A DNA stretch of 56,602 bases, taken from the IMG/VR virus record IMGVR_UViG_3300033064_001798, positions 1-56,602 of that record; one strand, written 5' to 3'. The notes under the pieces are model-generated. The model was given only the letters and a program-made list of their open reading frames with translations, was not told where the DNA came from and made no database searches. A program made the position numbers and the translations under genes. Origin of the DNA: a virus. Shown here in pieces: positions 384 to 26,050 of this stretch. Each line of letters starts with the position of its first letter. The first letter of the stretch is position 1.

Positions 384-590
384 TTATATACAGATACTTT
401 CCCATTTGTTATATAAAACTAAACCATTTAAATAATTATAACTAAGCCATACACCATTACGGCCCACAGAGGCATATTCACCAAGTGAGCTACTATAAAA
501 TTCAATTATATAAAGCTCACCACTTCTATTATATAAATTAGATGCTTGTTTAATCTTAACTCTATCACCTATTTTAAATTTATTTTTCAT
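384..590 (-). CDS. small SH3/KOW-like family protein (array member)
   Basis: 68 residues, starting MKNKFKIGDRV and ending NKWESICI, the two conserved ends of the repeated family. The ATG (590-588) overlaps the TGA of the upstream gene in an ATGA junction, and the upstream gene's last codons supply GGAG as ribosome site; a longer in-frame start upstream is therefore unlikely. The core (GELYIIEF...) groups with the members at 587-796 and 806-1003. The FK[VI]GD start is typical of SH3/KOW-like barrels; molecular function unknown. Confidence 0.85.
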   Translation of the reverse strand: MKNKFKIGDRVKIKQASNLYNRSGELYIIEFYSSSLGEYASVGRNGVWLSYNYLNGLVLYNKWESICI

Positions 591-796
591 ATACAAATAT
601 TCCTCCATTTATTTACTAATTCTAAATGGTTTAAAAATTTATACCTAATCCGGTTATCCTTTGCGCTTTCAATTTCTGCATATCTTTTTTCGGTATACAG
701 CGCGTAAATACCAGTTATGGTAAACTCACCATCCAGATAATATTTGAAGTCTGTATGGACTCTTGCCTTGTCTCCAACTTTAAAATCATAATCCAT
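587..796 (-). CDS. small SH3/KOW-like family protein (array member)
   Basis: 69 residues: MDYDFKVGDKARV at the start and NKWRNICI at the end. The core contains GEFTITGIYAL and groups with its two neighbours on this strand. The end codons TGG-AGG-AAT provide the GGAGG ribosome site for the next gene, whose ATG overlaps this TGA. Upstream GGAG lies a few bases before ATG. SH3/KOW-like by motif only; function unknown. Confidence 0.85.
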   Translation of the reverse strand: MDYDFKVGDKARVHTDFKYYLDGEFTITGIYALYTEKRYAEIESAKDNRIRYKFLNHLELVNKWRNICI

Positions 797-805
797 TTTA
801 TCTCC

Positions 806-1003
806 TTAAATACAGATCTTTTTCCATTTGTTAGCATGCTCTAAATCTTTTAAATAGTAAGCGTGTCTATCTCTTTTGCCATCTATTAGCGAAGCATATT
901 TATCGAACCCATTGATCTTTAACTCAGTTATAGTAAATTCGCGTTTACTATATCTACTAACACCAGCCTTAGTTTTAACTCTATCTCCAACTTTAAAATC
1001 CAT
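806..1003 (-). CDS. small SH3/KOW-like family protein (array member)
   Basis: 65 residues, MDFKVGDRVKTK at the start and ANKWKKICI at the end. I chose the ATG at 1003 because it has AAAGGAAA upstream and begins the conserved motif; an in-frame extension to 1132 would run through the preceding gene. The gene ends with TAA, so it is not coupled to the next one by ATGA overlap, yet keeps the C-terminal motif. Function unknown. Confidence 0.85.
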   Translation of the reverse strand: MDFKVGDRVKTKAGVSRYSKREFTITELKINGFDKYASLIDGKRDRHAYYLKDLEHANKWKKICI

Positions 1004-1013
1004 TTTATTTCCT

Positions 1014-1367
1014 TTAATATGGTTCATATACAAGATCGTTATCATCAAATATAATTTTAGCAGAATGCAAAGACTCAAAATACCCCGTCCAAAAAGAACT
1101 ATATAAATATGGTTTACCATCATCATCAACAAGTTCCAACATTATCATTCTGTATTCATCGTCCCATGCTACGCCTTTTGGAGTGTCTTCATCTGGTTTT
1201 CTATATAGGCTTGAATTTTTTCCATAATATTCATAATGGTTTTTAATTCTTGACAAGGATTCCTTTGCCATATCGATGTTATTCCATTCTATTTCTAAAT
1301 TCTCAACACAATAATTAGTATTGAAACTATCTCCTGTTCTATAATCAATTACTATTTTATATTTCAT
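1014..1367 (-). CDS. hypothetical protein, 117 aa
   Basis: An acidic, aromatic-rich soluble-looking protein that I do not recognise. It starts at ATG 1367 with AGGAG upstream. It ends ten bases before the next leftward gene, within the same apparent operon. It does not carry the NKWxxIxI C-terminus. No membrane segment or metal-binding cluster is visible. Confidence 0.75.
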   Translation of the reverse strand: MKYKIVIDYRTGDSFNTNYCVENLEIEWNNIDMAKESLSRIKNHYEYYGKNSSLYRKPDEDTPKGVAWDDEYRMIMLELVDDDGKPYLYSSFWTGYFESLHSAKIIFDDNDLVYEPY

Positions 1368-1380
1368 ATTATTTCTCCTT

Positions 1381-1557
1381 TTAAATTATTATTTTTTCCC
1401 AACCGTTTTTATTACATATGACAAACATCTTTAATTCATCTTTAGATACAAAATATTCACAGTCCATACAGCTCCAAGCTCCAACATTTTTATATACATC
1501 ATCACGAAATATTTCTGTTTTACATGGAGTACCACCATGTAAATATGGTATTTTCAT
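1381..1557 (-). CDS. small Cys-containing protein with family-type C-terminus
   Basis: 58 residues with scattered cysteines (SCMDCEYF pair) and a C-terminus NGWEKIII like the SH3/KOW-like family, but without the MKNKFKxGD start. I start it at 1557: it follows the stop of the upstream gene in TAATATG, with AAAAAGG as ribosome site. The CxxC pair could bind metal. It is one of several unrelated proteins bearing the family's C-terminal motif. Confidence 0.65.
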   Translation of the reverse strand: MKIPYLHGGTPCKTEIFRDDVYKNVGAWSCMDCEYFVSKDELKMFVICNKNGWEKIII

Positions 1558-1558
1558 A

Positions 1559-1732
1559 TTAAACCTTTTTCTTAAAAATACGATTGTGACTTTCCCATAA
1601 TGCTTCTGCAAGCTTTAAAGTAGGTCTATGAGAAGTATGTACCCCGCACACACATGATATAGTCCACATTTTGTCCTCAAATAATGCTTCTGGTTCCTTG
1701 TAGCAAAAGGGGCATTCAGCATATTTAGTCAT
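1559..1732 (-). CDS. zinc-ribbon-like protein (Lar-like), 57 aa
   Basis: 57 residues with CPFC near the start and CVCG around residue 31, the pattern of a short zinc ribbon; the length and CPFC start recall restriction-alleviation (Lar) type proteins, but similarity beyond the cysteines is not visible. ATG at 1732 has AAAGGAG upstream. Next gene starts two bases after its stop. Role in anti-restriction is only a guess from the fold class. Confidence 0.65.
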   Translation of the reverse strand: MTKYAECPFCYKEPEALFEDKMWTISCVCGVHTSHRPTLKLAEALWESHNRIFKKKV

Positions 1733-1747
1733 ATTAATCTCCTTTAT

Positions 1748-1981
1748 TTATATTGTTATTTTATTCCAACCATTAACAAGATCAAACCAATTTTGGTCAT
1801 AACCAAAATTGGTAGGGCATATTTCTATTTCTATTATACCATCGTAGATACTCGAAACTTTTGTGTCAACACCTATGCACTGCTTCATTCCATATAAAAA
1901 ATAAAGCCTATCCGCATGCCGGTAATCGTCTTTAATATTTTTAAGCCTAACCATGTCACCAACTTTAAATTTATTTTTCAT
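1748..1981 (-). CDS. small SH3/KOW-like family protein (array member)
   Basis: 77 residues, MKNKFKVGDMVRLK at the start and NGWNKITI at the end. The ATG (1981) overlaps the stop of the upstream member (ATGA), which supplies GGGAGG as ribosome site. The core is more divergent than in other members. It ends in TAA, then a new ribosome site starts the zinc-ribbon gene. Function unknown. Confidence 0.85.
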   Translation of the reverse strand: MKNKFKVGDMVRLKNIKDDYRHADRLYFLYGMKQCIGVDTKVSSIYDGIIEIEICPTNFGYDQNWFDLVNGWNKITI

Positions 1982-2241
1982 ATACAAATATCCTCCCATT
2001 TGTTAGCAATCCCTAACCAATCTTTATACCAATTCCATTCTTTATTGTCTACATCTAATTTAAAATAATCACTTGGATTATTAACTCTCCATAGTGCTGT
2101 ATGCGATACAATTACGGCCTCCATACCAACATATTCCTCCATGCTTTGAGTAATACCTATTTCATCTTGTGTAAATGGTGTAGTTCCGTATCTTACAAGT
2201 TTAACTTTTACTTTATCACCTATTTTAAATTTATTTTTCAT
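1978..2241 (-). CDS. small SH3/KOW-like family protein (array member)
   Basis: 87 residues: MKNKFKIGDKVKVK at the start, ANKWEDICI at the end. The core (FKLDVDNKEW...KDWL) belongs to the subgroup with an acidic strand and W-rich loop also seen at 8725-8967, 11698-11910, 13947-14171 and 20030-20260. Its start overlaps the stop of the 136-aa gene upstream and its last codons carry GGGAGG for the next gene. Confidence 0.88.
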   Translation of the reverse strand: MKNKFKIGDKVKVKLVRYGTTPFTQDEIGITQSMEEYVGMEAVIVSHTALWRVNNPSDYFKLDVDNKEWNWYKDWLGIANKWEDICI

Positions 2242-2648
2242 ATTGTTATATCCAAGTTATCAATTAATAGGTTTTCAGCTTTTTCATAAGCATCTTTTAT
2301 TGCATTTTCTTCAATATACTCATCATTTTCACTTAGTAGGCAATCAATAACACTCCCTGGCAATGGGACTTTTATTTCTTCGCCATTTATTGTTACTATT
2401 GCCTCAAGTGAAGTAATTTCAACCTCATCATTGCTGTTGTCATCTTTATAGGCAGTATATCCAACTTCGACACCCATGTCTAATATTATTTGAAACTTAC
2501 CTTCAAATCCGTTCATTTTTGACTCCTTTTCAGCTTTAAGTATCGTTCTTTCTTTCCTTCGTTTATTTCTTTTATCTTTTAGCAAAAGTTTTTCTTTTAA
2601 CATTTTTAAAGCAACATCTAATATTCTATTCATTTGGTATCTATTCAT
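2238..2648 (-). CDS. hypothetical protein with basic N-terminus, 136 aa
   Basis: The first ~40 residues are very basic (KDKRNKRRKERT region); the rest is acidic and probably a small beta-rich domain. Two starts are possible in the same frame: 2648 (AAAAGGAAA upstream, directly behind the promoter) and 2516 (GGAG at good distance), which would give a 92-aa protein; both may be used. It ends in LDITI with a TGA overlapping the next ATG, so the coupling junction resembles the SH3/KOW-like cassettes although the body is unrelated. Confidence 0.75.
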   Translation of the reverse strand: MNRYQMNRILDVALKMLKEKLLLKDKRNKRRKERTILKAEKESKMNGFEGKFQIILDMGVEVGYTAYKDDNSNDEVEITSLEAIVTINGEEIKVPLPGSVIDCLLSENDEYIEENAIKDAYEKAENLLIDNLDITI

Positions 2649-2667
2649 TTCGTTTCCTTTTAAAATA

Positions 2668-2696
2668 AATATAGTTTAAATGTTTTAGTTTGTCAA
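2668..2696 (-). promoter_or_regulatory. sigma-70-like promoter, leftward
   Basis: TTGACA (2696-2691), 17-bp spacer, TATATT (2673-2668). It lies right after the TAA of the broken gene at 2705-2928. The flanking AATAAAGC directly before TTGACA recurs at the promoters near 3,044, 3,556, 18,168 and 44,673. Confidence 0.75.
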
Positions 2697-2704
2697 GCTT
2701 TATT

Positions 2705-2928
2705 TTAAATTATTATCTTCTCCCAATTGGTTATTTTATCAAACCATTCGATGCTATGCCAATATACACTCCCTTCCACTTTAATGTGGTCAGTACGACA
2801 AAACTCTCTTATATATGTGCTGTCTCCTATAATTTTGTTCATACCTTTTAAAAAGTTAGTCCATCACTTGAACGGATTCCAACTTCTATATTTCTCAACC
2901 TAACCTTATCGCCAACTTTAAATTTCAT
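2705..2928 (-). pseudogene. frameshifted SH3/KOW-like family gene
   Basis: Starts MKFKVGDKVRLR and stops after 26 codons at TAA; the rest of the family protein, ending TNWEKIII, continues in the -1 frame from a T5 run just before that stop (around 2,850). One extra T would restore a 74-residue family member. Alternatives are ribosomal -1 slippage on the T run, translation of only the 45-aa distal part (ATG at 2842), or an assembly indel. It is the first gene of the leftward unit. Confidence 0.75.
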
Positions 2929-2952
2929 GTTTTCTCCTTTATTTTTAAAAAC

Positions 2953-2980
2953 ATAATAACAGATATAGCAATAATGTCAA
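2953..2980 (-). promoter_or_regulatory. sigma-70-like promoter, leftward
   Basis: TTGACA (2980-2975), 16-bp spacer, TATTAT (2958-2953); AAAGGAG and ATG of the broken family gene follow. With the rightward promoter at 3044-3072 it forms the divergent control region of the window. Confidence 0.75.
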
Positions 2981-3043
2981 GGATTATTTTAATTATTTTT
3001 ATACCTTTATATAACATGGCTGAAATATATTTTAAAATAAAGC

Positions 3044-3072
3044 TTGACATTGGTAATCAATAACATTATAGT
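3044..3072 (+). promoter_or_regulatory. sigma-70-like promoter, rightward
   Basis: TTGACA (3044-3049), 17-bp spacer and TATAGT (3067-3072), preceded by AATAAAGC. First rightward promoter of the window, 24 bases before the ATG of the gene at 3096. Confidence 0.8.
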
Positions 3073-3095
3073 GTTTTTAAAATAAAGGAGACAGC

Positions 3096-3305
3096 ATGAA
3101 ACATAAATTTAAAGTTGGCGATAAGGTAATATTTGCAAGCATTGAAGGTTCGCAGAGCCTTCAATGGCTTGGTAAAACAGGCACAATAATTGAAACACCC
3201 GATACTAATTATATGGGGTTTTACGTCTTAAAAGAATACCCACAACAGAGATGGGGTGGTCATTGGTTTAAATTATACAACAAATGGGAGGATATTTGTA
3301 TATGA
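3096..3305 (+). CDS. small SH3/KOW-like family protein (array member)
   Basis: 69 residues, MKHKFKVGDKVIF at the start, YNKWEDICI at the end. The core (WLGKTGTIIE, then YVLKEYP and WGGHWF) defines a subgroup shared with 11492-11701, 12086-12295 and 12292-12504. AAAGGAG precedes the ATG. Its last codons contain GGGAGG and its TGA overlaps the next ATG. Probably a small SH3/KOW-like barrel; function unknown. Confidence 0.88.
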   Translation: MKHKFKVGDKVIFASIEGSQSLQWLGKTGTIIETPDTNYMGFYVLKEYPQQRWGGHWFKLYNKWEDICI

Positions 3306-3547
3306 AATTTAAAGGTGGTGACAGAGTTATATTAATTGGTGATAAAACTATAACTGGATCTGATATATTAATATCGTCAGTATTAGACCCATTTTGGAAC
3401 GAGTATAAAATAAAGGGAACAGTAATCGAGGAATATTCTGGTTTATATAATTACAAAGTTACGTGGGATAATGAAAAACATTCTCATAGACTATATTTTG
3501 CATCTGAATTAAGACTATATAATAGGTGGCAAAAAATAATAATTTAA
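3302..3547 (+). CDS. small SH3/KOW-like family protein (array member)
   Basis: 81 residues, MKFKGGDRVILIGD at the start, YNRWQKIII at the end. The core (DPFWNEYKIKGTVIEE, then YKVTWDN) closely resembles the member at 25638-25871, 22 kb away, so the two share an ancestor. Start at 3302 is set by the ATGA overlap. It ends in TAA and a promoter follows at once. Confidence 0.88.
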   Translation: MKFKGGDRVILIGDKTITGSDILISSVLDPFWNEYKIKGTVIEEYSGLYNYKVTWDNEKHSHRLYFASELRLYNRWQKIII

Positions 3548-3555
3548 AATAAAGC

Positions 3556-3584
3556 TTGACAAACAAAAAATATAAGTATAATGT
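3556..3584 (+). promoter_or_regulatory. sigma-70-like promoter, rightward
   Basis: TTGACA (3556-3561), 17-bp spacer, TAATGT (3579-3584), preceded by AATAAAGC. It drives the two zinc-finger-array genes at 3624 and 5152. Confidence 0.8.
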
Positions 3585-3623
3585 AGTTTCAACATTAATA
3601 AAAAATTAAAAAAGGAGAGCAAT

Positions 3624-5150
3624 ATGGGCAACTTATTAACACATGATGTAGGTTACAGACTTTTTGGAAAGGAATCTAATGAAGAAAATTTGGTAGCATT
3701 TGAAAAGATTTTACCTAATTTCTTTCTCAATGATGAAACAAATGCAAGAGTTATTGCAAATTTCAAAAAAGAAACCAGAAGCACAAAAGAACAATATGTA
3801 GATGATCTATTTAAAATGGATGAGAATAGGCGCACATTTATTGAAGTCCCAAAAACACAGGACACAGACGAAGGATTTAAAAAGTATTACGAAATGATTA
3901 ATCGTGTAAGCTGTAAGTCCGGTAAATGGAGAGCTGTCATTGAGGAGTTTAGTCTTCAAACCTATAAAGTATATAAAAAAGGTAAAGTTACGGTTAAAAA
4001 GCAGGAATGCAAACTTTTTAAATTTCTACTACAGAAAAAGATATTCACAAAAGAAGAAATTGAACAAATAACGACAATCAGACAGAGTTCAAAGAAATTA
4101 TATATAATTATTTCGCGTAACCCTATTGACTTTTTGTTTTGTGCTACTAATCAAAACTTTGGTAGCTGTTTAAGCCTTTCAAGCGATCATGGCGAAGCGT
4201 TTTATATGGGACTTGCTGGAGCGACAGTAGACCCAAATAGGGTAATTATGATGCTCAGTAACGGTAAATATAAAAGGTTCACTGTAAAAGGTGAAGAATT
4301 TAAACATTTTAAAATCATATCAAGAAGTTGGGGCGTGGTTGGAACTGCACCTGATGTTGATAAGGACATATTACATATAACAAAGTACTACCCAAATTCA
4401 CAGGCAGTTATTAAATTTTGCAAACCAATATCCGATATATTTGGTATTGAAATAAACGATAAAAGAGAACCATTTTACGGACTTCATGGTAAATACCCGT
4501 TTGAATTTCCAAAATTTAAAAATGACTTTGGTGTTTCATTTATGTATTTGGATAATTTTGGAGTAGTCAAATACAAAAGTGGTAGATATGGGTATGACTT
4601 TGCAAACGGAGGGACAGGTTGTAAGATGAAAAGTTGGAGGTGGAGTAGAGGTTTTGAAAGAATGAAAACCATAAACAATCTTGATGGTTCAATTTCATGT
4701 GTCGACTGTGGGAATGGCATGCGTGAAGATGATGCTTATTACAATGAAAATGATGATGGAAACGGTGATGCATTCTGTTGGGATTGCTTTAATGCAAAGT
4801 ATTTTCATTGCAAAAATTGTGACAAATTTGAGACAAAAGAAAACGGTCACGAATATGATAATTCCACATATTGCCTTGATTGCTTTGATAAACTGTTTAC
4901 AACATGTACGCATTGTGATGATCCACTACGTATAGATGATGGTAAAGATGGTGATGGGAGTCTTTATTGCACTAAGTGCTTTGATGAAATATATACCGCT
5001 TGTGTATGGTGCAAAGATGTGCATAGAAGGGACTCAGGTGAATTTACTGAGGTAGATAGTGACTTGTATTGTAAAACGTGTCACTTTGCTGTATATGGCG
5101 ATGGCGGGAACGAGAAATTTATTGAATTTGATATGCTGGAGGCATGCTAA
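3624..5150 (+). CDS. large protein with C-terminal LIM-like zinc-finger array
   Basis: 508 residues. About 350 residues of a mixed alpha/beta domain that I do not recognise (contains SRNPIDFLFCATNQNFGSC around 165-185) are followed from Cys359 to about 486 by four units of paired CxxC knuckles separated by acidic, Asp/Gly-rich stretches. Spacing resembles LIM or treble-clef zinc modules, suggesting protein-protein contacts. GGAG precedes the ATG and a dedicated promoter lies upstream. The metallopeptidase gene follows one base after its stop. Function unknown; coordinated synthesis with the peptidase suggests a joint role. Confidence 0.85.
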   Translation: MGNLLTHDVGYRLFGKESNEENLVAFEKILPNFFLNDETNARVIANFKKETRSTKEQYVDDLFKMDENRRTFIEVPKTQDTDEGFKKYYEMINRVSCKSGKWRAVIEEFSLQTYKVYKKGKVTVKKQECKLFKFLLQKKIFTKEEIEQITTIRQSSKKLYIIISRNPIDFLFCATNQNFGSCLSLSSDHGEAFYMGLAGATVDPNRVIMMLSNGKYKRFTVKGEEFKHFKIISRSWGVVGTAPDVDKDILHITKYYPNSQAVIKFCKPISDIFGIEINDKREPFYGLHGKYPFEFPKFKNDFGVSFMYLDNFGVVKYKSGRYGYDFANGGTGCKMKSWRWSRGFERMKTINNLDGSISCVDCGNGMREDDAYYNENDDGNGDAFCWDCFNAKYFHCKNCDKFETKENGHEYDNSTYCLDCFDKLFTTCTHCDDPLRIDDGKDGDGSLYCTKCFDEIYTACVWCKDVHRRDSGEFTEVDSDLYCKTCHFAVYGDGGNEKFIEFDMLEAC

Positions 5151-5151
5151 T

Positions 5152-8728: not shown

Positions 8729-8967
8729 AATTTGAAATAGGTGATAAAATAAGAATTAAAAAAGATATAGTAGTGATGGACACAATTGATGATGTTACTT
8801 TTGTTGATGATATGTTGCAATATATAGGTTTAACTGCAACTATTATTGGTTCAGATATGTGGGTCAGCACGTGTATTGAATATTACCTTGATATAGATGA
8901 TGATACGTACTCTTGGCACCAAGATTGGCTTGAAACTGCAAACCAATGGGAGAAGATAACTATATGA
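8725..8967 (+). CDS. small SH3/KOW-like family protein (array member)
   Basis: 80 residues, MKFEIGDKIRIKK at the start, ANQWEKITI at the end. Core YLDIDDDTYSWHQDWLE belongs to the W-rich subgroup also found at 1978-2241 and 20030-20260. Overlaps both neighbours by ATGA, with GGGAG in its terminal codons serving the next gene. Confidence 0.88.
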   Translation: MKFEIGDKIRIKKDIVVMDTIDDVTFVDDMLQYIGLTATIIGSDMWVSTCIEYYLDIDDDTYSWHQDWLETANQWEKITI

Positions 8968-9200
8968 AATTTGAAATAGGTGATAGGGTGACATTGAAAA
9001 AAGGGCTTTATTTAATTGAAAATTCTAACCCTTTAGATATAGAAGGTTACATATTTGAATTATATGAAAACGGCTCATATAATTATTCAGTTACGGGAAT
9101 AAAATATTCACTAATTGTAGAATGGGACAATGGGATGAGCAATTGTTACACTGTTGAATGCCTAAACCCAATAAACAAATGGAGCAAAATAACAATATGA
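8964..9200 (+). CDS. small SH3/KOW-like family protein (array member)
   Basis: 78 residues, MKFEIGDRVTLKK at the start, INKWSKITI at the end. The core contains IVEWDNGMSN, resembling the members at 3302 and 25638. It overlaps the helicase start at 9197 by ATGA, so the junction here feeds a large, unrelated gene. Confidence 0.88.
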   Translation: MKFEIGDRVTLKKGLYLIENSNPLDIEGYIFELYENGSYNYSVTGIKYSLIVEWDNGMSNCYTVECLNPINKWSKITI

Positions 9201-11200
9201 AATTTAAATTATCACCAGAAAAGAAACGTATATTTCTAAAAACAAATAATCCCCCAAAATTAGATGGCTTAGTTTTAAAAGATGGTATATATAAATGCCC
9301 AAATATAGAAGCTAATTTAAAAGTTTTAAAAGACGAAGGATTTACAATAGAGCAGAATCTATTAAAGGCTGATTTATTCCCATTTCAGGTCGATGGGGTT
9401 AGCTTTATAGAAAACCATGATGGTTGTTGCATACTGTCAGATGATATGGGGTGTATAGATGGCGATGCTATGATAACAGTAAATCGTGGTGGAAATAGCA
9501 GAAAATATAAACTGTCTGATGCATATAATGGGTTTAACGGATTAAGATCAAATAAATGTCATAATTGGGACAAGAATATTAAGACTAATATTAGGTGTTT
9601 GAAAGATGGAATATTTGGCCTTAATAGTGTCAAGGATATTAAATATTCAGGTAAAAAAGAATGTATCGAAATAGAAACAAAAAGTGGAAAAAGTTTAAAA
9701 CTTACACCAGATCATGAATTATTAAACTGCTATTATGAATGGATGGAGGCAAAGGACTTTAGAATTGGTGATGGCATCGTTGTTAATAGTTATAGAGCCA
9801 CAGGTATCAAAAATATAGATATGGTTGTAAAAATAACAAAATGCGACGAAATTAATACCTATGACATAGTAATGGAAGATCCATATAGGAATTTTGTTGC
9901 CAATGGAATCGTTGTTCATAATTGTGGCAAAACTATACAAACATTAGGATATTTAGCCCAAAATCCAGATTTAAGACCAGCAATCATAACATGCCCTGCT
10001 TCACTAAAGGGTAATTGGGAGGCTGAGATAAACAAGTTCATGTATAATTTTACAGTCACACAATTACATGGTAAAACACCTTATCCATTTATATATGACT
10101 TTGAACTTGGTATTTATATAATAAATTATGATATATTAGACTCTTGGAAAACTGAGTTAAGAGATTTACACGCAAAGGTTATTGTTGCAGATGAATTGCA
10201 TTATTTAAAAAATACTGGAACTAAAAAGAAACCAGTAAAAAGGACGAGAGCATTTCAATATTTAGCAAAAACAATACCGCATAGGATAGGGCTAACTGGC
10301 ACTTTGATGCAAAATAGACCAATAGAAATATATACGCCTGTTAATTTAATAAGCCCTAATTTCTTTGGTAAAAGAATGCACTATGCTAAAAAATATTGTA
10401 ATGCAAAATATAAACATTGGGGTTGGGATTTTACAGGTAGCTCAAATGAAGCAGAATTACATGCAAGATTGCAAGAAATAAGCATAAGACGTACAAAAAA
10501 TGAAGTTTTAAAAGATTTACCTCCTAAAATTAAAACTTTTCTACCTGTTGAAATAAGTAATAGAAAGGAATATTTAGAGGCAGAGACAGACTTTTTATTA
10601 TGGCTTAAAAGGAAATCAGGACCAAAAGCAGTCAAAAAAGCGTCTAACGCAATTGTTCTGACTAGAATGAATGCATTAAGACAAATTGCATCATATGGGA
10701 AAATAATACATCTTAAACGATGGATATCTGACTTCTTAGAAACAGATGCAAAACTAATTGTTTTTACATATCATAAAAATATGATTAATGAGTTATATGA
10801 ACCATTTAAAAGTGTATCGGTAAAAATAGATGGGAGTATACCGGCTACAGAAAGGCAATCTTTAGTTGACAAGTTTCAAAATAATAAAAAAACAAGAGTA
10901 TTCTTTGGAAATTTAAGTGCTTGTAGCGAAGGGTTAACGCTTACAGCGGCTAGCTATGTAATGTATGCTGAATACCCTTGGCAACCTGGGAAACTTGCTC
11001 AAAGCGGGGATAGGGCATACAGATATGGTCAACTAAACACAGTTAACATGTACTATATGGTAGCTAGTAATACTATAGAGGAACATATGGTAGCAATGCT
11101 TGACGCGAAGCAAGAGGTGTTAAGCAAGGTACTTGATGGTAAAGAGGCAGACAAAGGAGATATAATCTCTGAATTAAAGAAGAAATATTTAAGGGGTTAG
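9197..11200 (+). CDS. SNF2-type helicase with intein in the Walker A motif
   Basis: 667 residues. Extein 1-85 and 243-667 join to a superfamily II SNF2/SMARCAL1-like ATPase: Walker A DDMG-CGKT, DELH box, LTGT, and C-terminal motifs SEGLTLT and DRAYRYGQ. The intein (86-242; see separate entry) must splice out to form the P-loop. Likely a DNA translocase for fork remodelling or recombination. The start at 9197 is set by the ATGA overlap; its second to fourth residues (KFK) resemble the small-family N-terminus, suggesting the gene was captured into that junction. Confidence 0.92.
   Translation: MKFKLSPEKKRIFLKTNNPPKLDGLVLKDGIYKCPNIEANLKVLKDEGFTIEQNLLKADLFPFQVDGVSFIENHDGCCILSDDMGCIDGDAMITVNRGGNSRKYKLSDAYNGFNGLRSNKCHNWDKNIKTNIRCLKDGIFGLNSVKDIKYSGKKECIEIETKSGKSLKLTPDHELLNCYYEWMEAKDFRIGDGIVVNSYRATGIKNIDMVVKITKCDEINTYDIVMEDPYRNFVANGIVVHNCGKTIQTLGYLAQNPDLRPAIITCPASLKGNWEAEINKFMYNFTVTQLHGKTPYPFIYDFELGIYIINYDILDSWKTELRDLHAKVIVADELHYLKNTGTKKKPVKRTRAFQYLAKTIPHRIGLTGTLMQNRPIEIYTPVNLISPNFFGKRMHYAKKYCNAKYKHWGWDFTGSSNEAELHARLQEISIRRTKNEVLKDLPPKIKTFLPVEISNRKEYLEAETDFLLWLKRKSGPKAVKKASNAIVLTRMNALRQIASYGKIIHLKRWISDFLETDAKLIVFTYHKNMINELYEPFKSVSVKIDGSIPATERQSLVDKFQNNKKTRVFFGNLSACSEGLTLTAASYVMYAEYPWQPGKLAQSGDRAYRYGQLNTVNMYYMVASNTIEEHMVAMLDAKQEVLSKVLDGKEADKGDIISELKKKYLRG
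9452..9922 (+). other. mini-intein inside the SNF2 helicase
   Basis: 157 residues beginning Cys (CIDGDAMITV, block A), with TPDHELL (block B) and ending NFVANGIVVHN before Cys+1 (blocks F/G). No homing endonuclease domain is present, so this is a splicing-only mini-intein. The insertion point splits the Walker A loop between DDMG and CGKT. Confidence 0.92.
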
Positions 11201-11202: not shown

Positions 11203-11436
11203 ATGTATATAAATGATTTAACAAATAAGATTTTAGAATCAAGTTACTATAATAAGACCAATATAATTATTAACGATAAGATCTATATTATTACTCATTT
11301 TGTGCGTGGCTTTTATGATACTATATTTTATTTGGATGATTTTAATAGTGGGTGGAACTATATCCAGCTTGATATTGATGATGATTTATGTAGCACAAAT
11401 ATGATAAATATGAAATGGATGAAAATAGTTATTTAA
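11203..11436 (+). CDS. hypothetical protein with family-type C-terminus
   Basis: 77 residues, Asp- and aromatic-rich, ending MKWMKIVI, a variant of the small-family C-terminal motif, but lacking the MKNKFKxGD start. Ribosome site AAGGGGTTAGG overlaps the helicase end. A promoter follows right after its TAA. Function unknown. Confidence 0.7.
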   Translation: MYINDLTNKILESSYYNKTNIIINDKIYIITHFVRGFYDTIFYLDDFNSGWNYIQLDIDDDLCSTNMINMKWMKIVI

Positions 11437-11491: not shown

Positions 11492-11701
11492 ATGAAAAAT
11501 AAATTTAAAGTTGGTGACAAAATAATAATAAAAAATGACAACGCCTATGATAGTGAACGTATATGGCATGGCCTTATTGGTACTGTAAAAACAGTACCAA
11601 TAAGAGGGACGAGTAGCCTTTATACTTTAAAGGAATATACAGGGTATTTTGGAGGCACATGGTTCGTTAAACTTAACCAATGGAGCGATATAACAATATG
11701 A
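11492..11701 (+). CDS. small SH3/KOW-like family protein (array member)
   Basis: 69 residues, MKNKFKVGDKIII at the start, LNQWSDITI at the end; core GLIGTVKTV, YTLKEYTG and GGTWF place it in the LKEYP subgroup. Start 11492 has AAAGGGG upstream; earlier in-frame ATG at 11447 lies over the promoter. First gene of a five-gene array with four consecutive ATGA overlaps. Confidence 0.88.
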   Translation: MKNKFKVGDKIIIKNDNAYDSERIWHGLIGTVKTVPIRGTSSLYTLKEYTGYFGGTWFVKLNQWSDITI

Positions 11702-11910
11702 AAAATAAATTTAAAGTTGGTGATAAAGTAAGGATAAAATATACTAATTTGCCTGATAAAGATGTTAGGAAGTGTATGGGTGAAATAGCAATCATAACAG
11801 AATACGTGCGTAATGGTCAATACCGTATAGATATAGGTGGGGAGAATTGGCGTTGGGATAGTGACCACTGGTTTGAATCGTATAACCAATGGGAGGCTAT
11901 TTGTATATGA
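11698..11910 (+). CDS. small SH3/KOW-like family protein (array member)
   Basis: 70 residues, MKNKFKVGDKVRIK at the start, YNQWEAICI at the end; core YRIDIGGENWRWDSDHW belongs to the W-rich subgroup. Both ends overlap neighbours (ATGA); GGGAGG in the final codons is the next gene's ribosome site. Confidence 0.88.
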   Translation: MKNKFKVGDKVRIKYTNLPDKDVRKCMGEIAIITEYVRNGQYRIDIGGENWRWDSDHWFESYNQWEAICI

Positions 11911-12089
11911 AAGTAGAATTTATATATAGTATGGGAAATTTATTAACGGTTTGCAAATATAAAAAGGGACCTTCTGTAAGAGTTGGGTCATATTTTTGTA
12001 CTGCGATGTGTGAGCATTCTGTGTCTATTAACAATCAGGCAAGATATGTGATATGCAATAGAAACAAATGGGAGTCAATAACTATATGA
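11907..12089 (+). CDS. unrelated small protein inserted in the cassette array
   Basis: 60 residues. It has the family C-terminus NRNKWESITI and both ATGA junctions, but its start (MKVEFIYSMGNLLTVC) and body, with four cysteines, are unlike the SH3/KOW-like members on either side. It shows that the junction can carry a different coding sequence. Function unknown. Confidence 0.8.
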   Translation: MKVEFIYSMGNLLTVCKYKKGPSVRVGSYFCTAMCEHSVSINNQARYVICNRNKWESITI

Positions 12090-12295
12090 AAAATAAATTT
12101 AAAGTAGGTGATAAAATAATATTTGGAAATGTAGAAGGTGGATATAACTGTAACTGTAACTATCAATGGCTTGGTAAAACAGGTACTATAATAAAAGTAC
12201 ATCATGGCTCATATATGTTAAAAGAATATCCAGACCTAAAATGGGCCGGAGATTGGTTTAAACCATACAACAAATGGGGAGCTATCGTTATATGA
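12086..12295 (+). CDS. small SH3/KOW-like family protein (array member)
   Basis: 69 residues, MKNKFKVGDKIIF at the start, YNKWGAIVI at the end. Core WLGKTGTIIK, YMLKEYP, WAGDWF is closest to the member at 3096-3305. Overlaps both neighbours; here the terminal codons read TGG-GGA-GCT, keeping GGGGAG as ribosome site. Confidence 0.88.
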   Translation: MKNKFKVGDKIIFGNVEGGYNCNCNYQWLGKTGTIIKVHHGSYMLKEYPDLKWAGDWFKPYNKWGAIVI

Positions 12296-12504
12296 AAAAT
12301 AAATTTAAAGTAGGTGATAAAATAATATTTAACCATTATAGTAACAGTAAGTGGATTGGTAGGAAAGGTATGATAGTAAGTGTGCCAACTAAAACTGTTG
12401 TTTGTGCTAGGAATGAGTATTACATTTTAAAAGAATATCCATCGGTATATTGGACAGGAATGTGGTTTGATAAATGCAATCCGTGGGAGGATATTTGTAT
12501 ATAA
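12292..12504 (+). CDS. small SH3/KOW-like family protein (last of array)
   Basis: 70 residues, MKNKFKVGDKIIF at the start, CNPWEDICI at the end; core YYILKEYPSVYWTGMWF fits the LKEYP subgroup. It ends ...ATT-TGT-ATA-TAA, so the TGA of the usual ATGA junction has become TAA and no gene follows: the array stops at the non-coding region. Confidence 0.86.
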   Translation: MKNKFKVGDKIIFNHYSNSKWIGRKGMIVSVPTKTVVCARNEYYILKEYPSVYWTGMWFDKCNPWEDICI

Positions 12505-13946: not shown

Positions 13947-14171
13947 ATGGAAAAATATAAATTTAAAATAGGTGACAAAGTAAGAATGCTTATGGGTGAA
14001 AGTACACGCAATGTGGGTTATTGCATGTCACATCTTATAGGTGAAACAGGTACGATAACAAGGCGATATATGTATTGTGGCGAAGCTACATATTCCGTGA
14101 ACAGTAACACTTGGTCATGGTGTGACGATTGGATGGAGAAAGTTAACCGATGGGAGAAGATAACTATTTAA
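13947..14171 (+). CDS. small SH3/KOW-like family protein
   Basis: 74 residues, MEKYKFKIGDKVRM at the start, VNRWEKITI at the end; core IGETGTITRRY and NTWSWCDDWME fit the W-rich subgroup. A solitary member, not overlapping another cassette, and ending with TAA, but the C-terminal motif is kept. Confidence 0.86.
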   Translation: MEKYKFKIGDKVRMLMGESTRNVGYCMSHLIGETGTITRRYMYCGEATYSVNSNTWSWCDDWMEKVNRWEKITI

Positions 14172-14577: not shown

Positions 14578-14598
14578 ATTTCACGAAAATCATGGGAG
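14574..14598 (+). other. 3' relic of an HNH endonuclease gene
   Basis: AAATATAAATTTCACGAAAA plus TCATGGG is the same sequence that ends the HNH pseudogene at 17359 (coding YKFHENHG). Only this tail remains, and it now supplies GGGAGG, the ribosome site for rtcB. It indicates that an HNH gene once stood here and was deleted. Confidence 0.65.
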
Positions 14599-14606
14599 GA
14601 AATAAA

Positions 14607-16788: not shown

Positions 16789-17359
16789 ATGAAAGTGAAT
16801 AAAGAAGACTTATTAACACAGAGAAAATTGAAAGAGTTGTTGCATTATGACCCCGATACAGGATTGCTCACTTGGCGGTCTAGGATTGGGATTGTCGCCA
16901 TGTCAAACAATTTAATACGCAATATGCTGGTAAAACAGCAGGTTATAAATATCATCCAGATGATGCACATGTTGATTATCGTGTTATATCTGTTGGGGTG
17001 GTTTTGGGTAAAAAGAAATATAGCTTCTTGGCACATCGTTTAGTATGGCTTTATATGACGGGAAAGTGGCCTGAAAACCAGATAGATCATGATAATGGAG
17101 ATGCTACTGATAATAGATGGGTCAACTTGGATGATGTGACCCGTTCTAAAAATGGCATGAACCAAAAAAGAGTAGTACAAATACATCTGGCTCCACTGGT
17201 GTTTGTTGGCATAAACGAGATAAAAAATGGGTTGCTCAAATAAAGTTTAATGGCAAACATGTGCATCTCGGTTATTCCACAGACAACCAACAAGCCATAG
17301 ACGCACGTAAAGCCGCGAACATTAAATATAAATTTCACGAAAATCATGGGGAGAGGTAA
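16789..17359 (+). pseudogene. broken HNH/AP2 homing endonuclease gene
   Basis: Begins with the family start (NKEDLLTQRKLKELLHYDPDTG), then is frameshifted near 16,885 and again near 17,170. The HNH part (LAHRLVWLYMTGKWPENQIDH, IDH...DNRWVNL) and the AP2-like DNA-binding part with KYKFHENHGER survive in other frames. Inserted right after rtcB. The terminal codons supply the ribosome site of the next gene. Confidence 0.9.
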
Positions 17360-17363
17360 AATT

Positions 17364-17582
17364 ATGGAAGATGACAATAGACCATTTCCGATACAAGGTG
17401 AATGGGATCGTAGAAAAAAAGCAAAACCATGTACAATTCCTTGGTGGTTGGCAGAGGAAGTTTACAAGGTTTATAGTAGTAAATTTGGTACATCACAATC
17501 ATTAGAGGGGTTAGCAAAACGTGGTGGTTTTGGGCGAGGTGAAGTACTTTGGCTATTAAGTTTAAGTGGCTATAAATTATAA
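17364..17582 (+). CDS. hypothetical protein, 72 aa
   Basis: A Trp-rich protein containing a possible helix-turn-helix segment (SLEGLAKRGGFGRGEVLWLLSL). Start 17364 follows GGGGAGAGG, which is the end of the broken HNH gene. Function not recognised. Confidence 0.65.
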   Translation: MEDDNRPFPIQGEWDRRKKAKPCTIPWWLAEEVYKVYSSKFGTSQSLEGLAKRGGFGRGEVLWLLSLSGYKL

Positions 17583-18351: not shown

Positions 18352-18498
18352 GTGCGTAAAAAAATTAATTTTTTTATATCATGGCAACAAAACAAAAAAT
18401 TGGAGGATGCTATAAACAGAACAGGTATGACTATATCTGAGTTATTTAGAAGGGCGTTAGATTATTATTTAAAAAGTGAGGAGTTCGATGATAAATAA
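18352..18498 (+). CDS. ribbon-helix-helix (CopG/Arc-like) regulator, GTG start
   Basis: 48 residues: a basic beta strand (KKINFFISW) followed by two helices (NKKLEDAINRTG and ISELFRRALDYYLKS), the pattern of CopG/MetJ/Arc repressors, which bind operators as dimers. AAAGGAGGTGA six bases before GTG fixes the start. Its own promoter and the upstream terminator isolate it. It overlaps the HNH gene start. Possible targets, including its own promoter, are not identified. Confidence 0.8.
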   Translation: MRKKINFFISWQQNKKLEDAINRTGMTISELFRRALDYYLKSEEFDDK

Positions 18499-19057
18499 AG
18501 ATAAAGAAGATTTATTAACACAAGAAAAATTGAAAGAGTTGTTAGATTATGACCCTGATACTGGTTTATTTACTTGGAAGGAAAGGGTTGGGAGTGGTCG
18601 GGATAAGTGGTTTAATGTGATGTTTGCAGGTAAGATGGCAGGATCAAAAAAGACAGATATTAAACTGAAGCACTACAAAACGATAAATGTAAAAATAAAT
18701 TTAAATAAAAAGAGGTATGCTTTCTTAGCTCACCGTTTAGCATGGCTATATATGACTGGTAAATGGCCTGATAAACAAATAGACCATATAAACGGCGATT
18801 CCACTGATAATAGGTGGTTTAATTTAAGAAATATTACAGGTTCAGAGAATTGCAGAAATAAAAAAATAAACAACAATAATAAGTCCGGTTTCACTGGTGT
18901 CTATTGGCGAAAAGACGCTAATAAGTGGAGGGCCGCGATAAAGACGCATGGGAAGAAAATAAGTCTTGGTTGCTTCACAGACAAACAAGATGCCATAGAT
19001 GCAAGAAAAGAAGCTAATATCAAATACGGGTTCCATGAGAATCATGGACATAAATAA
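18488..19057 (+). CDS. free-standing HNH homing endonuclease with AP2-like domain (intact)
   Basis: 189 residues. N-terminal motif NKDKEDLLTQEKLKELLDYDP, HNH core (AHRLAWLYMTGKWP, QIDHINGDSTDNRW) near 80-115, and a C-terminal AP2-like DNA-binding part (SGFTGVYWRKDANKW ... DAIDARKEANIKYGF) ending ENHGHK. One of two complete copies among six in this window. Starts within the end of the regulator gene; GAGGAG supplies the ribosome site. Confidence 0.93.
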   Translation: MINKDKEDLLTQEKLKELLDYDPDTGLFTWKERVGSGRDKWFNVMFAGKMAGSKKTDIKLKHYKTINVKINLNKKRYAFLAHRLAWLYMTGKWPDKQIDHINGDSTDNRWFNLRNITGSENCRNKKINNNNKSGFTGVYWRKDANKWRAAIKTHGKKISLGCFTDKQDAIDARKEANIKYGFHENHGHK

Positions 19058-20018: not shown

Positions 20019-20029
20019 AGGTGTAAACT

Positions 20030-20260
20030 ATGAAATATAAATTTAAAATAGGAGACAAGGTTACAATATTAGATGGTAACGATGTTTTTCATCTTCGTTA
20101 TAATAGAAATTGCATGCCACCATATATAGGTAAGCATGCAACGATAGTAAGTAGGCGCTACAACATTTCTGGCACTGAGACATACAGAATTGATATAAAT
20201 ACGCATACATGGTGTGTCGATTGGTTGCAAGGTTGTGGATGGGGTAAAATAATTATTTAA
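20030..20260 (+). CDS. small SH3/KOW-like family protein
   Basis: 76 residues, MKYKFKIGDKVTIL at the start, GCGWGKIII at the end. Core YRIDINTHTWCVDWLQ puts it in the W-rich subgroup. Intact member next to the frameshifted copy; ends with TAA and is not coupled by ATGA overlap. Confidence 0.86.
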   Translation: MKYKFKIGDKVTILDGNDVFHLRYNRNCMPPYIGKHATIVSRRYNISGTETYRIDINTHTWCVDWLQGCGWGKIII

Positions 20261-20276
20261 ATATAAAGGAGAAAAT

Positions 20277-21251
20277 ATGAAAACTATAAAAACGCCAACA
20301 GGCAAAATAGTAATTATGGACTGTGAAAAAGGGCCATTAGAATTTGTATCTCTTGGCGACTATGGCAAACAGGCGAATATTAAAGCCGACTTTTTAGGCT
20401 TGACAGACGAGATAAACGGAGTTGAAAATTCAGGCATAATGCCATTAACCGAGAAATGGGTTATAACAATTTCAACTCAATACGGTTGTTCTATGAATTG
20501 CACCTTTTGCGATGTACCAAAAGTTGGGCCAGGAATTAACGCAACATATCATGATATGCTTGACCAGATAAAAATGGCATTATCTTTGGAACCAGAAATT
20601 GATTGCACAAAAAGATTAAATATTCATTTTGCAAGGATGGGTGAGCCAACATTTAATGGAAATGTATTGGATCTTGCTCTATGTTTGAAAAGAAACATTT
20701 ATGATTTTTATGGCAACTCTGGTACTGTTCATCCTGTTATTTCTACAATGATGCCTAAAAATAATAGAAATCTACTTAAATTTTTAAATATATGGACAGG
20801 TGACATAAAAAATAATTATTATAATGGTGAAGCAGGATTGCAATTTTCCATAAACAGCACATCTGATGCGCAAAGAAACCAAATGTTTTCAGGTAATTCA
20901 CTTGATTTGGATGATATTTCAAATATTGGTATTATGTTGCCAGATCCGGTTGGTAGAAAATATACTTTAAACTTTGCTTTACATGATGATTTTGAAGTAG
21001 ATGCTAAATTATTATGTTATTATTTTGATCCAAATAAGTTTTTAGTTAAACTTACACCAATTCATAATACGGCTACATCTATTGATAATAAAATTGTTAC
21101 AACAGGTGGATATGATAATTATTATCCATATAAAAAGGTAGAAACAGATTTAAAAAATGTTGGATTTGATGTTATTGTTTTTATACCTTCAAAAGATGAG
21201 GAAGAAAGCAGGATAACATGTGGTAATGCAATTTTAGCAGATAGCAAGTAA
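20277..21251 (+). CDS. RlmN-like radical SAM protein
   Basis: 324 residues. Radical SAM CxxxCxxC motif CSMNCTFCD around residue 72-80, a GEPTFNG segment (GMGEP-like) around 125, and a C-terminal TCGNA near the end, matching the position of the methyl-carrying Cys355 of E. coli RlmN. The residue matching Cys118 (7 before the first cluster Cys) is Thr instead. RlmN/Cfr enzymes methylate adenine in 23S rRNA and tRNA position 37. The N-terminal helical domain is shortened. Located between the NAD+ genes. Substrate unknown. Confidence 0.8.
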   Translation: MKTIKTPTGKIVIMDCEKGPLEFVSLGDYGKQANIKADFLGLTDEINGVENSGIMPLTEKWVITISTQYGCSMNCTFCDVPKVGPGINATYHDMLDQIKMALSLEPEIDCTKRLNIHFARMGEPTFNGNVLDLALCLKRNIYDFYGNSGTVHPVISTMMPKNNRNLLKFLNIWTGDIKNNYYNGEAGLQFSINSTSDAQRNQMFSGNSLDLDDISNIGIMLPDPVGRKYTLNFALHDDFEVDAKLLCYYFDPNKFLVKLTPIHNTATSIDNKIVTTGGYDNYYPYKKVETDLKNVGFDVIVFIPSKDEEESRITCGNAILADSK

Positions 21252-21274
21252 TAATTTAAAAGGGTAATTTTAAA

Positions 21275-21848
21275 ATGAGAATAAATAAAGAAGATTTGTT
21301 AGATGCGGTTAAATTAAAAGAATTATTAGATTACGACTATCACCGGCATTTTCACTTGGCGTGAACGTGTCGGTGATAGTCGTAGTATTAAGATATTCAA
21401 CACCAAGTTTGCTGGTAAGATTGCAGGGTCTATATATCACCAAAAGGATAGGCATGATGGTTTTTGTTATATAAGAGTAGGGATATCATTTAATAAAAAA
21501 TCATATCAATATTACATGCACCGTTTAGCATGGCTATATATGACAGGCGAGTGGCCTGAAAACCAGATAGACCATATTAACCATATTGGCACTGATAATA
21601 GGTGGGTTAATTTGAGGGATACTGATGAAAATCCTATGAATAGAGGAATGCAGGGTAATAACACATCTGGGTTTACTGGTGTCAGTTGGCACAAGTATGG
21701 TAAAAAATGGCAAGCTGAAATGCAGGTGGGTGGAGAGCATATTCACATAGGTTATTTCACAAACAAACAACAAGCCATAGACGCACGTAAAAGTGCGAAC
21801 ATAGAGTACGGGTTTCATGAAAATCATGGAAATAAAAATAATGCTTGA
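21275..21848 (+). pseudogene. frameshifted HNH/AP2 homing endonuclease gene
   Basis: Begins MRINKEDLLD...LKELLDYDY and is frameshifted around 21,342; from there the complete remainder (FTWRERVGDS..., MHRLAWLYMTGEWP, IDHIN, SGFTGVSWHKYG, GFHENHGN) is in one frame. A single indel explains the break. Its stop TGA is part of the TTGACA of the promoter that follows. Confidence 0.88.
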
Positions 21849-21872: not shown

Positions 21873-21906
21873 GCATTTAAACAATTAACGAAAAGGAGAT
21901 AAAAAC

Positions 21907-24324: not shown

Positions 24325-24332
24325 AATACTTC

Positions 24333-24360
24333 TTGACAAGCAATAATATTGGCGTATACT
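24333..24360 (+). promoter_or_regulatory. sigma-70-like promoter, rightward
   Basis: TTGACA (24333-24338), 16-bp spacer, TATACT (24355-24360). The -10 and following GTATTTAAGTTAA equal those of the promoter at 6836, so the two promoter regions share an origin. Confidence 0.82.
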
Positions 24361-24392
24361 GTATTTAAGTTAATTTAAAAGGGAGATTAAAT

Positions 24393-24701: not shown

Positions 24702-24703
24702 TT

Positions 24704-24958
24704 ATGAAAGAAAAAAGTTGTATAAATTGTGATAATTCCTTAATTATCAACGACAGAGATCCATATGATTGGTTTTGTGATGACAACTTAGCCATTGTTT
24801 GTAAGCTTGTTAAAAATGATAAGCAGAACTTAGATTCTAGGCATCCATCAGACCATAGCCCATACAAGGCCATAGCGGTGTCCATAAGGCCGTATTGCGT
24901 AGAAAGGGAGGCCATAGTACCAGAATGGTGCCCGAAGCTCAATATGGGGGCCGTATGA
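24704..24958 (+). CDS. cysteine-rich phage protein, 84 aa
   Basis: Cysteines at CINCDNS, WFC, IVC, PYC and EWC, spread as in a recurrent class of small phage zinc proteins (ending RPYxxExxxPxWCP). Probably binds zinc; function unknown. Its TGA overlaps the next ATG. Confidence 0.7.
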   Translation: MKEKSCINCDNSLIINDRDPYDWFCDDNLAIVCKLVKNDKQNLDSRHPSDHSPYKAIAVSIRPYCVEREAIVPEWCPKLNMGAV

Positions 24959-25197
24959 TCCCAGAACCGATATTTATAATCCTAATTATGTTTATGTCAC
25001 TATACTATCTGTATAGAATTATAGAAATATGTATAGAAATAATAAGCCCAAACAAATTCGATGGAACATGGAAATGTTGCCCTGAGTGTAAATGTAAAGG
25101 TACGATAAAGGACATGGATGACTTTATTGAAGATGGGTATCGTGTTTGTGAAAAATGTGAACAAGAATGGTATACGAGCGTGGATTATTCAAAATAA
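24955..25197 (+). CDS. membrane protein with zinc-ribbon domain, 80 aa
   Basis: An N-terminal hydrophobic helix (IFIILIMFMSLYYLYRII) followed by CCPECKCKG and CEKCEQEW, a four-cysteine zinc ribbon. Start 24955 fits an ATGA overlap with the previous stop; a longer start at 24895 would overlap deeply. Function unknown. Confidence 0.65.
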   Translation: MIPEPIFIILIMFMSLYYLYRIIEICIEIISPNKFDGTWKCCPECKCKGTIKDMDDFIEDGYRVCEKCEQEWYTSVDYSK

Positions 25198-25208
25198 AGG
25201 ATATTGGT

Positions 25209-25409
25209 ATGGAAACATTTAAAATTGGTGATAAAGTTGTAATAGATTCGGAATGCACATGTCCTACTTGTACAAAATTAGAAGGATCTATTTGCATTAT
25301 AACAGATATCTTAGGCAGTGGAGAAATATTTTTAGACATAGGCGAAGGGGATGTTTGGGATTGTGGGCATCTTAAACATGCAAATAAATGGAGAGATATA
25401 TTGATATGA
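25209..25409 (+). CDS. small SH3/KOW-like family protein (array member)
   Basis: 66 residues, METFKIGDKVVIDS at the start, ANKWRDILI at the end. It carries CTCPTC in the core, like the member at 25435, forming a Cys-bearing subgroup. Its terminal codons give GGAGAG, and the TGA overlaps the ATG of the ten-codon cassette. Confidence 0.86.
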   Translation: METFKIGDKVVIDSECTCPTCTKLEGSICIITDILGSGEIFLDIGEGDVWDCGHLKHANKWRDILI

Positions 25410-25438
25410 AAAATAAATGGCGGGATATAACTATATGA
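25406..25438 (+). CDS. ten-codon cassette remnant (MKNKWRDITI)
   Basis: A complete reading frame of ten codons that joins the family start (MKNK) straight to the family end (KWRDITI). ATGA overlaps join it to both neighbours. The whole variable core is missing, as expected from recombination between AATAAATTT near the start and AATAAATGG near the end of a normal gene. It still passes the ribosome on to the next gene. Confidence 0.8.
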   Translation: MKNKWRDITI

Positions 25439-25641
25439 AAAATAAATTTAAAATAGGTGATAGAGTTATAGTGACTCCAATATGCACTTGTGATGTATGC
25501 CTTGAAATAAAAGGACAAATTGCTAAAATAATAAAAATTACAGATTCTGACAAAAATTTCAAATTAGATATAGGTGGCGGTCTTCCTTGGGATGAAAGTT
25601 TTGTAACAAAATATAACATATGGGAGGATATAACCATATGA
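25435..25641 (+). CDS. small SH3/KOW-like family protein (array member)
   Basis: 68 residues, MKNKFKIGDRVIVT at the start, YNIWEDITI at the end. Core with CTCDVC and FKLDIGGGLPW is related to 25209-25409. Ribosome site GGCGGG is in the ten-codon cassette upstream; ATGA overlap on both sides. Confidence 0.88.
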   Translation: MKNKFKIGDRVIVTPICTCDVCLEIKGQIAKIIKITDSDKNFKLDIGGGLPWDESFVTKYNIWEDITI

Positions 25642-25871
25642 AAAATAAATTTAAAATAGGTGATAAAGTTATATTAATCGGGCATAAAAATTTCAGTCTT
25701 GAAGTGTATGATCGTAACCCTTTATGGGAAAAGTATAAAATTTCTGGAATTGTAGCTGGTACACACCAATCAACATATGGTATACAAGTTAATTGGGATA
25801 ATGGGTGCCAAAACTATTATAACACATTAGAACTTAAGATATATGATAAATGGGAGAAAATAACCATATGA
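25638..25871 (+). CDS. small SH3/KOW-like family protein (array member)
   Basis: 77 residues, MKNKFKIGDKVILIG at the start, YDKWEKITI at the end. Core (NPLWEKYKISGIV, VNWDNG) is the close relative of 3302-3547. Overlaps both neighbours by ATGA. Confidence 0.88.
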   Translation: MKNKFKIGDKVILIGHKNFSLEVYDRNPLWEKYKISGIVAGTHQSTYGIQVNWDNGCQNYYNTLELKIYDKWEKITI

Positions 25872-26050
25872 AAAATAAATTTAAAATAGGTGATAAGGTT
25901 AGGCATAAAAATTTTAATCGTGTCGGCACTGTTACTGAAATATGGGGACACCTTGATATGGTGTCCATTTCAGATAAAAGAGATTATATAATGCATTGGA
26001 ATGTTATTAATTTAGAACTTGAAAATAAATGGGAGGCTATTTGTATATGA
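25868..26050 (+). CDS. small SH3/KOW-like family protein (array member)
   Basis: 60 residues, the shortest complete member: MKNKFKIGDKVRHK at the start, ENKWEAICI at the end, with only GTVTEIWG...SISDKRDY between. Overlaps both neighbours; its junction feeds a membrane protein gene. Confidence 0.87.
   Translation: MKNKFKIGDKVRHKNFNRVGTVTEIWGHLDMVSISDKRDYIMHWNVINLELENKWEAICI

Follow-up and report, generated by a model that had tools for sequence, protein, structure and literature searches.

A common C-terminal tail on small, variable proteins of a virus genome fragment, with codons that can also carry the ribosome site of the next gene

The stretch of DNA analysed here (the window) is the 56,602 nt (56.6 kb) of virus record IMGVR_UViG_3300033064_001798, a genome fragment, and the subject is a set of small genes, often in head-to-tail arrays, whose proteins end in the same short tail, N-x-W-x-x-I-x-I. 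This tail is not confined to one protein family but is carried by several kinds of body. In the arrays its codons also contain the Shine–Dalgarno (SD) sequence of the following gene. Tails outside such junctions that lack the SD sequence keep the same Trp and two Ile residues, and for this reason the tail is read as a protein-level signal.

Occurrence of the tail

In the window, N-x-W-x-x-I-x-[IV]-stop is seen 22 times, and every occurrence closes an open reading frame (ORF); simulations gave 0.15 occurrences on average and never more than 2. An SH3-like family comprises 19 intact and two frameshifted members, which start with FK[IV]GD and end with the tail; the alignment of the 19 intact ORFs shows no variation at the residues M, F, G, D, W, I and I. 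A profile built from these same sequences recovered all 19 in the window (E values 2e-25 to 3e-15) and gave three further partial matches, all from the two frameshifted members. The original prediction, made from the letters of the window, described about 20 small genes with a common start and end and a modular design of conserved ends and variable cores, and both descriptions were borne out.

Four more proteins with this tail make up a second family, Zn-knuckle-like in its V-x-C-N end and two C-x(2-3)-C-like pairs. The best match to this family elsewhere, in Bacteroides phage DAC16_93, is weak (E 0.8) and has ISKLVV at its end instead. Three single proteins without detected homology (at 11203, 29449 and 40831) carry the tail as well.

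Three distant outside homologues of the barrel body were found, in Bacillus phage vB_BcoS-136 (tblastn with an averaged query, E 9e-3), in Enterococcus phage Revolver (E 0.6) and in a clostridial genome (a phrog_7488 match, 7e-8). All three have the barrel through the D/W..ML[DE] stretch, followed by unrelated sequence in place of the tail. In both structure models of family members described below, the last eight residues lie beyond the last strand and are of low confidence (mean predicted local distance difference test score, pLDDT, 61 and 53). On the best explanation, the tail would be an added element that the barrel fold does not need. Literature searches for a phage C-terminal tail common to unrelated proteins found none.

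The genes concerned are as follows (coordinates, strand, description).

384..590, minus: SH3-like member; uncoupled, NKWESICI-TAA, tail without SD core
587..796, minus: SH3-like member; NKWRNICI coupled (GGAGG, ATGA) to the 384-590 gene
806..1003, minus: SH3-like member; uncoupled, NKWKKICI-TAA, SD of the next gene beyond the stop
1381..1557, minus: Zn-knuckle-like protein; tail NGWEKIII-TAA, without SD core
1748..1981, minus: SH3-like member; uncoupled, NGWNKITI-TAA
1978..2241, minus: SH3-like member; coupled, NKWEDICI (GGGAGG, ATGA)
2238..2648, minus: unrelated upstream gene; ends DNLDITI, ATGA-coupled, tail degenerate and without Trp
2705..2928, minus: frameshifted SH3-like member; the start frame, MKFKVGDKVRLRN..., reaches a stop and ...FDKITNWEKIII resumes in the -1 frame, with the end NWEKIII
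3096..3305, plus: SH3-like member; coupled, NKWEDICI
3302..3547, plus: SH3-like member; uncoupled, NRWQKIII-TAA, then promoter-like block AATAAAGCTTGACAA
8725..8967, plus: SH3-like member; coupled, NQWEKITI
8964..9200, plus: SH3-like member; coupled, NKWSKITI, ATGA overlapping the helicase-like gene start at 9197
11203..11436, plus: protein without detected relatives; tail KWMKIVI, uncoupled
11492..11701, plus: SH3-like member; coupled, NQWSDITI
11698..11910, plus: SH3-like member, first structure model; coupled, NQWEAICI
11907..12089, plus: Zn-knuckle-like protein within the array; coupled tail NKWESITI
12086..12295, plus: SH3-like member; coupled, NKWGAIVI, SD from GGGGAG
12292..12504, plus: SH3-like member; NPWEDICI-TAA, uncoupled yet SD core retained
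13947..14171, plus: SH3-like member, solitary; NRWEKITI-TAA
19834..20018, plus: frameshifted SH3-like member; MNKFKIGDKVVW... reaches a stop and ...KRWEWSKITI resumes in the -1 frame
20030..20260, plus: SH3-like member, solitary; CGWGKIII-TAA, without SD core
25209..25409, plus: SH3-like member; coupled, NKWRDILI
25406..25438, plus: 10-codon mini-ORF MKNKWRDITI, then stop; family start fused to family tail, a putative core-deleted scar
25435..25641, plus: SH3-like member; coupled, NIWEDITI
25638..25871, plus: SH3-like member, second structure model; coupled, DKWEKITI
25868..26050, plus: SH3-like member; NKWEAICI coupled to the gene of a hydrophobic protein, start at 26047
29449..29622, plus: charged, helix-like 57-aa protein; tail NVWHKITI-TAA, without SD core
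39629..39808, plus: Zn-knuckle-like protein; tail SWWTIIV, ATGA-coupled to the next gene
39805..39987, plus: Zn-knuckle-like protein; tail NKWSEITI-TAG, uncoupled, without SD core
40831..41061, plus: unrelated protein; tail NKWREICT, GGAGGG in the tail serving a start at 41052

A fused upstream reading given in ORF lists, from an ATG about 18 nt before MKNKFK, was rejected; it crosses the tail of the preceding gene in a different reading frame.

Separation of the tail from the ribosome site

The GGAG inside the end codons and the overlapping ATGA are present as first described. An SD core within the three codons from Trp onwards is present in 14 of 16 coupled ends, those overlapped by the next start, versus 4 of 13 uncoupled ends (Fisher p=0.003; 14/15 versus 4/13 before the gene at 39629 was added). 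Where a coupled end has the core (14 cases), Trp is followed by E (always GAG), R, S or G, in codons that give GGAG together with TGG. The nine uncoupled tails that lack it conserve W, I and I throughout (27 of 27 positions), while eight different residues are found next to W and the Ile codons differ synonymously. On the strength of these nine tails, an exclusively RNA-level feature was rejected as the sole explanation. The claim that one and the same DNA holds the protein motif and the ribosome site of the following gene is right as to the overlap, but the nine tails and the unrelated bodies make these two separable layers. On the simplest reading, selection acts on the peptide, and the SD sequence is written into free tail positions where a gene follows.

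Both the ATGA overlap and the intragenic SD are present at 12 of the 13 junctions listed, which precede SH3-like, Zn-knuckle-like, helicase and hydrophobic genes and have the consensus AATGGgaggatAT...TATATGAAA. The distance from SD to start is 9–11 nt at 12 of the 13, compared with mostly 4–7 nt in 70 other genes (p=3e-7), because the frame of the tail forces the longer spacing. Free initiation in this phage would seldom use such a spacing, but a restart at ATGA could tolerate it; termination-reinitiation is the presumed mode of action of the junctions. Among bacterial and archaeal gene pairs with overlaps of this type, 13 of 14 tested were strictly coupled, and removal of the SD lowered reinitiation in four of five E. 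coli pairs (PMC6728339).

Two junctions have features of their own. At 41052, the ATG lies within the I-C codons (ATATGC) of NKWREICT rather than in an ATGA, and the GGAGGG spacing is 5 nt. At 9197, the start of the helicase-like gene (MKFKL...) is inside a cassette junction, an arrangement in which a replication gene would depend on the translation of a variable cassette.

Barrel bodies and variable cores

AlphaFold models of two members with divergent cores show the same five-stranded small barrel with the same strand order (mean pLDDT 84 and 72). Their Foldseek neighbours are SH3-like, namely the Mind bomb repeat (TM 0.73), YorP of SPbeta (0.67), the KIN17 KOW domain and PetP, with E values of only 0.02–0.2. 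Sequence-profile matches to YorP, PsaE and nitrile hydratase beta are all weak, and the PHROG matches (phrog_7488, 4e-12; phrog_11307, 8e-9) are to families without annotated function. The two models and their fold neighbours agree with the SH3/KOW-like assignment made earlier. In a Pfam scan no family member reached a cut-off, giving no curated KOW or SH3 membership; weak matches to methyltransferase, Cpn10 and ADH_N families were below cut-off and were discarded.

Core clusters cross arrays, grouping 3096, 12086, 12292 and 11492; 1978, 8725, 20030 and 13947; 25209, 25435 and 11698; and 3302, 25638 and 8964. Of the subgroups proposed originally, the pairs 3302/25638 (z 11.6), 3096/12086 (22.4) and 1978/8725 (14.7) were recovered and 20030 joins the last of these (7.9 to 9.4), but 11698 fits there weakly (4.2 with 8725), its best partner being 25209 (9.2). 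The clusters, and the linkage of ends to cores given below, were computed on few, related sequences, and p-values are guides.

Conserved ends and exchange of cores

The roughly 50 bases around each junction had been called nearly identical, which is too strong, as the 62-nt junction family is 63–89% identical to a reference copy; the well-conserved stretch is approximately AATGG..AT..TATATGAAAAATAAATTTAAA. Synonymous identity in the FKxGD start is 0.776 versus an expected 0.539 +/- 0.045 (0 of 2000 simulations), in the tail 0.585 versus 0.499 (24 of 2000), and at expectation in the eight residues preceding the tail. Greater synonymous conservation at the junction than in the core, proposed as a check, is therefore seen at the start and mildly at the end, but not in the residues just before the tail.

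Ends are only weakly linked to cores (end similarity 0.70 within and 0.68 between core clusters). Between the genes at 25209 and 25435 lies ATGAAAAATAAATGGCGGGATATAACTATATGA, encoding the mini-ORF, in which the family start meets the tail at a common AATAAAT, the arrangement that the loss of a core would be expected to leave. The block TAATTTAAAATAAAGCTTGACAA, containing a stop and a promoter-like -35, recurs after 2705(-) and 3547. The scar, the weak end-core linkage and the repeated blocks make a recombination-driven cassette system plausible. The further argument, that starts are homogenised within an array, is not supported in general (permutation p=0.053; 18.7 of 24 identical against 18.5 where neighbours differ in their cores).

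Another record (IMGVR_UViG_3300020180_000037, positions 1928-4428) has a different array that likewise combines constant ends with variable cores. Its tandem ORFs, 4 nt apart, start with M[SR]SPLSR.. and end with YPYN[LV]IIKN, and their low-complexity Gly/Tyr/Asp cores are open on the opposite strand too (HIHIH).

Genomic context and relatives

The window carries genes for a DnaE-like polymerase, a DnaB-like helicase, a primase, a clamp-like processivity factor and a thymidylate synthase-like protein, and the family genes, small and variable, are clustered between the replication genes. From their translations, the helicase-like (9158-11200) and RtcB-like (14592-16781) genes have apparent intein-like insertions. 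Six related HNH-type endonuclease genes (16789-17365, 18476-19057, 21281-21848, 33929-34520, 44925-45491 and 50362-50916) are present, several apparently frameshifted or truncated. A 60-nt promoter-like block with TTGACAAGTGG is repeated at 76-135 and 328-387. The radical SAM protein at 20277-21251 has 60% identity to a protein of Bacteroides phage Versailles. Strong SD sites are rare in Bacteroidetes genes, yet the phage's own genes use them, despite this Bacteroides phage-like protein.

A search for the family that covered about 790 genomes, from one class and one phylum, and had no positive control there found none. A DnaE search found one near-identical fragment, and the relatives found with NAMPT were without the family. 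Two candidate relatives were rejected: Streptomyces Karimac gp135 lacks the tail and matches only over the N-terminal half, and MT836517 is a bacterial fragment.

Interpretation

The explanation we favour, to which we give about even chances, is that these are accessory phage proteins, produced by termination-reinitiation, whose common C-terminal tail serves for docking or targeting. A lineage-specific expansion would have produced small accessory proteins, mostly SH3-like (KOW/Mib-repeat/YorP-like) barrels with diversified cores, and a minority with Zn-knuckle-like or other domains would have the same tail at their carboxyl end. Selected as a protein signal, the tail would most likely dock the proteins to one common partner or direct them to one place; both the partner and an accessory role, in host interaction or anti-defence, are suggestions. 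In head-to-tail arrays the free tail positions, mainly the one after Trp, would take codons that make GGAG about 10 nt before the overlapping ATGA, allowing a ribosome that finishes one gene to restart on its neighbour. Homology for losing, gaining and reshuffling cores would come from the repeats at the starts and ends.

A rival explanation takes the tail as a by-product of junction DNA, the conserved unit being a restart and recombination block and the uncoupled copies recent relics. It would account for the repetition of the junction DNA, the concentration of SD sequences in coupled ends and the SD core still found in four uncoupled ends. However, the nine uncoupled tails that lost the SD have diversified at every free position, yet W, I and I persist and the Ile codons change synonymously, solitary genes (29449 and 20030) retain the tail, and a restart needs neither the Trp nor the two Ile, making this reading unlikely. 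A tail that acts as an interaction strand, joining paralogues into hetero-oligomers with coupling for stoichiometric co-assembly, appears more doubtful: the alternating hydrophobic I-x-I suits strand addition, and genes coupled by ATGA are reported often to code for partner subunits of heteromeric complexes (PMC10666635), but solitary genes also have the tail, as do bodies of the Zn-knuckle-like and other kinds. Very improbable is a degradation signal for a host protease that sets protein lifetime. Although the tail is short, hydrophobic, C-terminal and on several unrelated bodies, as such a signal might be, known bacterial C-terminal degrons (ssrA-like) end differently, in small residues such as Ala-Ala.

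Several points weigh against the docking-tail explanation itself. The array is known from one genome, and a near-identical overlapping record (L005, 99.9%) spans 40668-50536 and covers, among the tail genes, 40831 only. The low pLDDT of the tail may come from a shallow alignment, the helix-like and Zn-knuckle assignments are sequence patterns only, uncoupled tails could descend recently from coupled ones, and strong nucleotide constraint near starts could also produce the synonymous conservation seen there. Start homogenisation within arrays is not significant. Junction-pattern searches of viral and genome collections gave nothing or chance matches only, and family-alignment searches of such collections gave no confirmed relative with the array, although empty searches do not show that related arrays are absent. 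Defence families had no match among the proteins scanned.

If the docking-tail explanation is true, three layers lie in one short stretch of DNA, a peptide tail, a restart site for the next gene and homology for exchange, giving a phage a simple means to hold swappable, co-expressed and equally tagged small proteins. A common tail would also be a handle on functionally related phage proteins that sequence families miss. A bolder version, which we hold to be rather improbable, is that the tail is a phage protein-sorting tag (directing, e.g., to the virion or to one phage or host machine) on fast-diversifying effectors, the DNA serving as tag, ribosome site and homology arm without a dedicated recombinase.

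Comparison with known systems

YorP of SPbeta, the Mind bomb repeat, phrog_7488 and phrog_11307 resemble the family in fold and in the FKxGDxV start, as judged by profile and fold matches, but unlike it the distant barrel homologues examined have neither the tail nor tandem coupled arrays. The integron-like feature of an inverted-repeat site was not seen at the junctions among the pairs listed, in a record that is a fragment and with no search aimed at an integrase. The ATGA termination-reinitiation pairs (PMC6728339) are alike in having an SD within the C-terminus of the upstream gene and a 4-nt overlap; here, one C-terminal solution is repeated across a family and the peptide is independently conserved.

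The internal proteins of T-even phages are diverse anti-restriction proteins carried into the host by means of a capsid targeting sequence (PMC3012670, PMC12373910). They are likewise small, non-homologous accessory proteins with one short terminal signal on diverse bodies. The T-even signal sits at the N terminus and serves packaging and injection, whereas the motif found here across unrelated bodies is C-terminal, which places these proteins outside that class. The DNA of this motif, moreover, also functions as a ribosome site.

The start-associated sequences (SAS) of cluster K mycobacteriophages are 13-bp repeats, GGGATAGGAGCCC, that contain an SD and stand ahead of many small non-structural genes of different families, and the upstream stop codon can fall inside the repeat (PMC3203893). 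The 13 junctions are comparable, being SD-containing repeats before small genes of different families, but their consensus differs from the SAS repeat, which was not seen directly upstream of the starts. SAS are not described as a common coding tail, whereas in the arrays of this window the end of the preceding coding sequence itself forms the repeat, the peptide being conserved and the ATGA overlap fixed.

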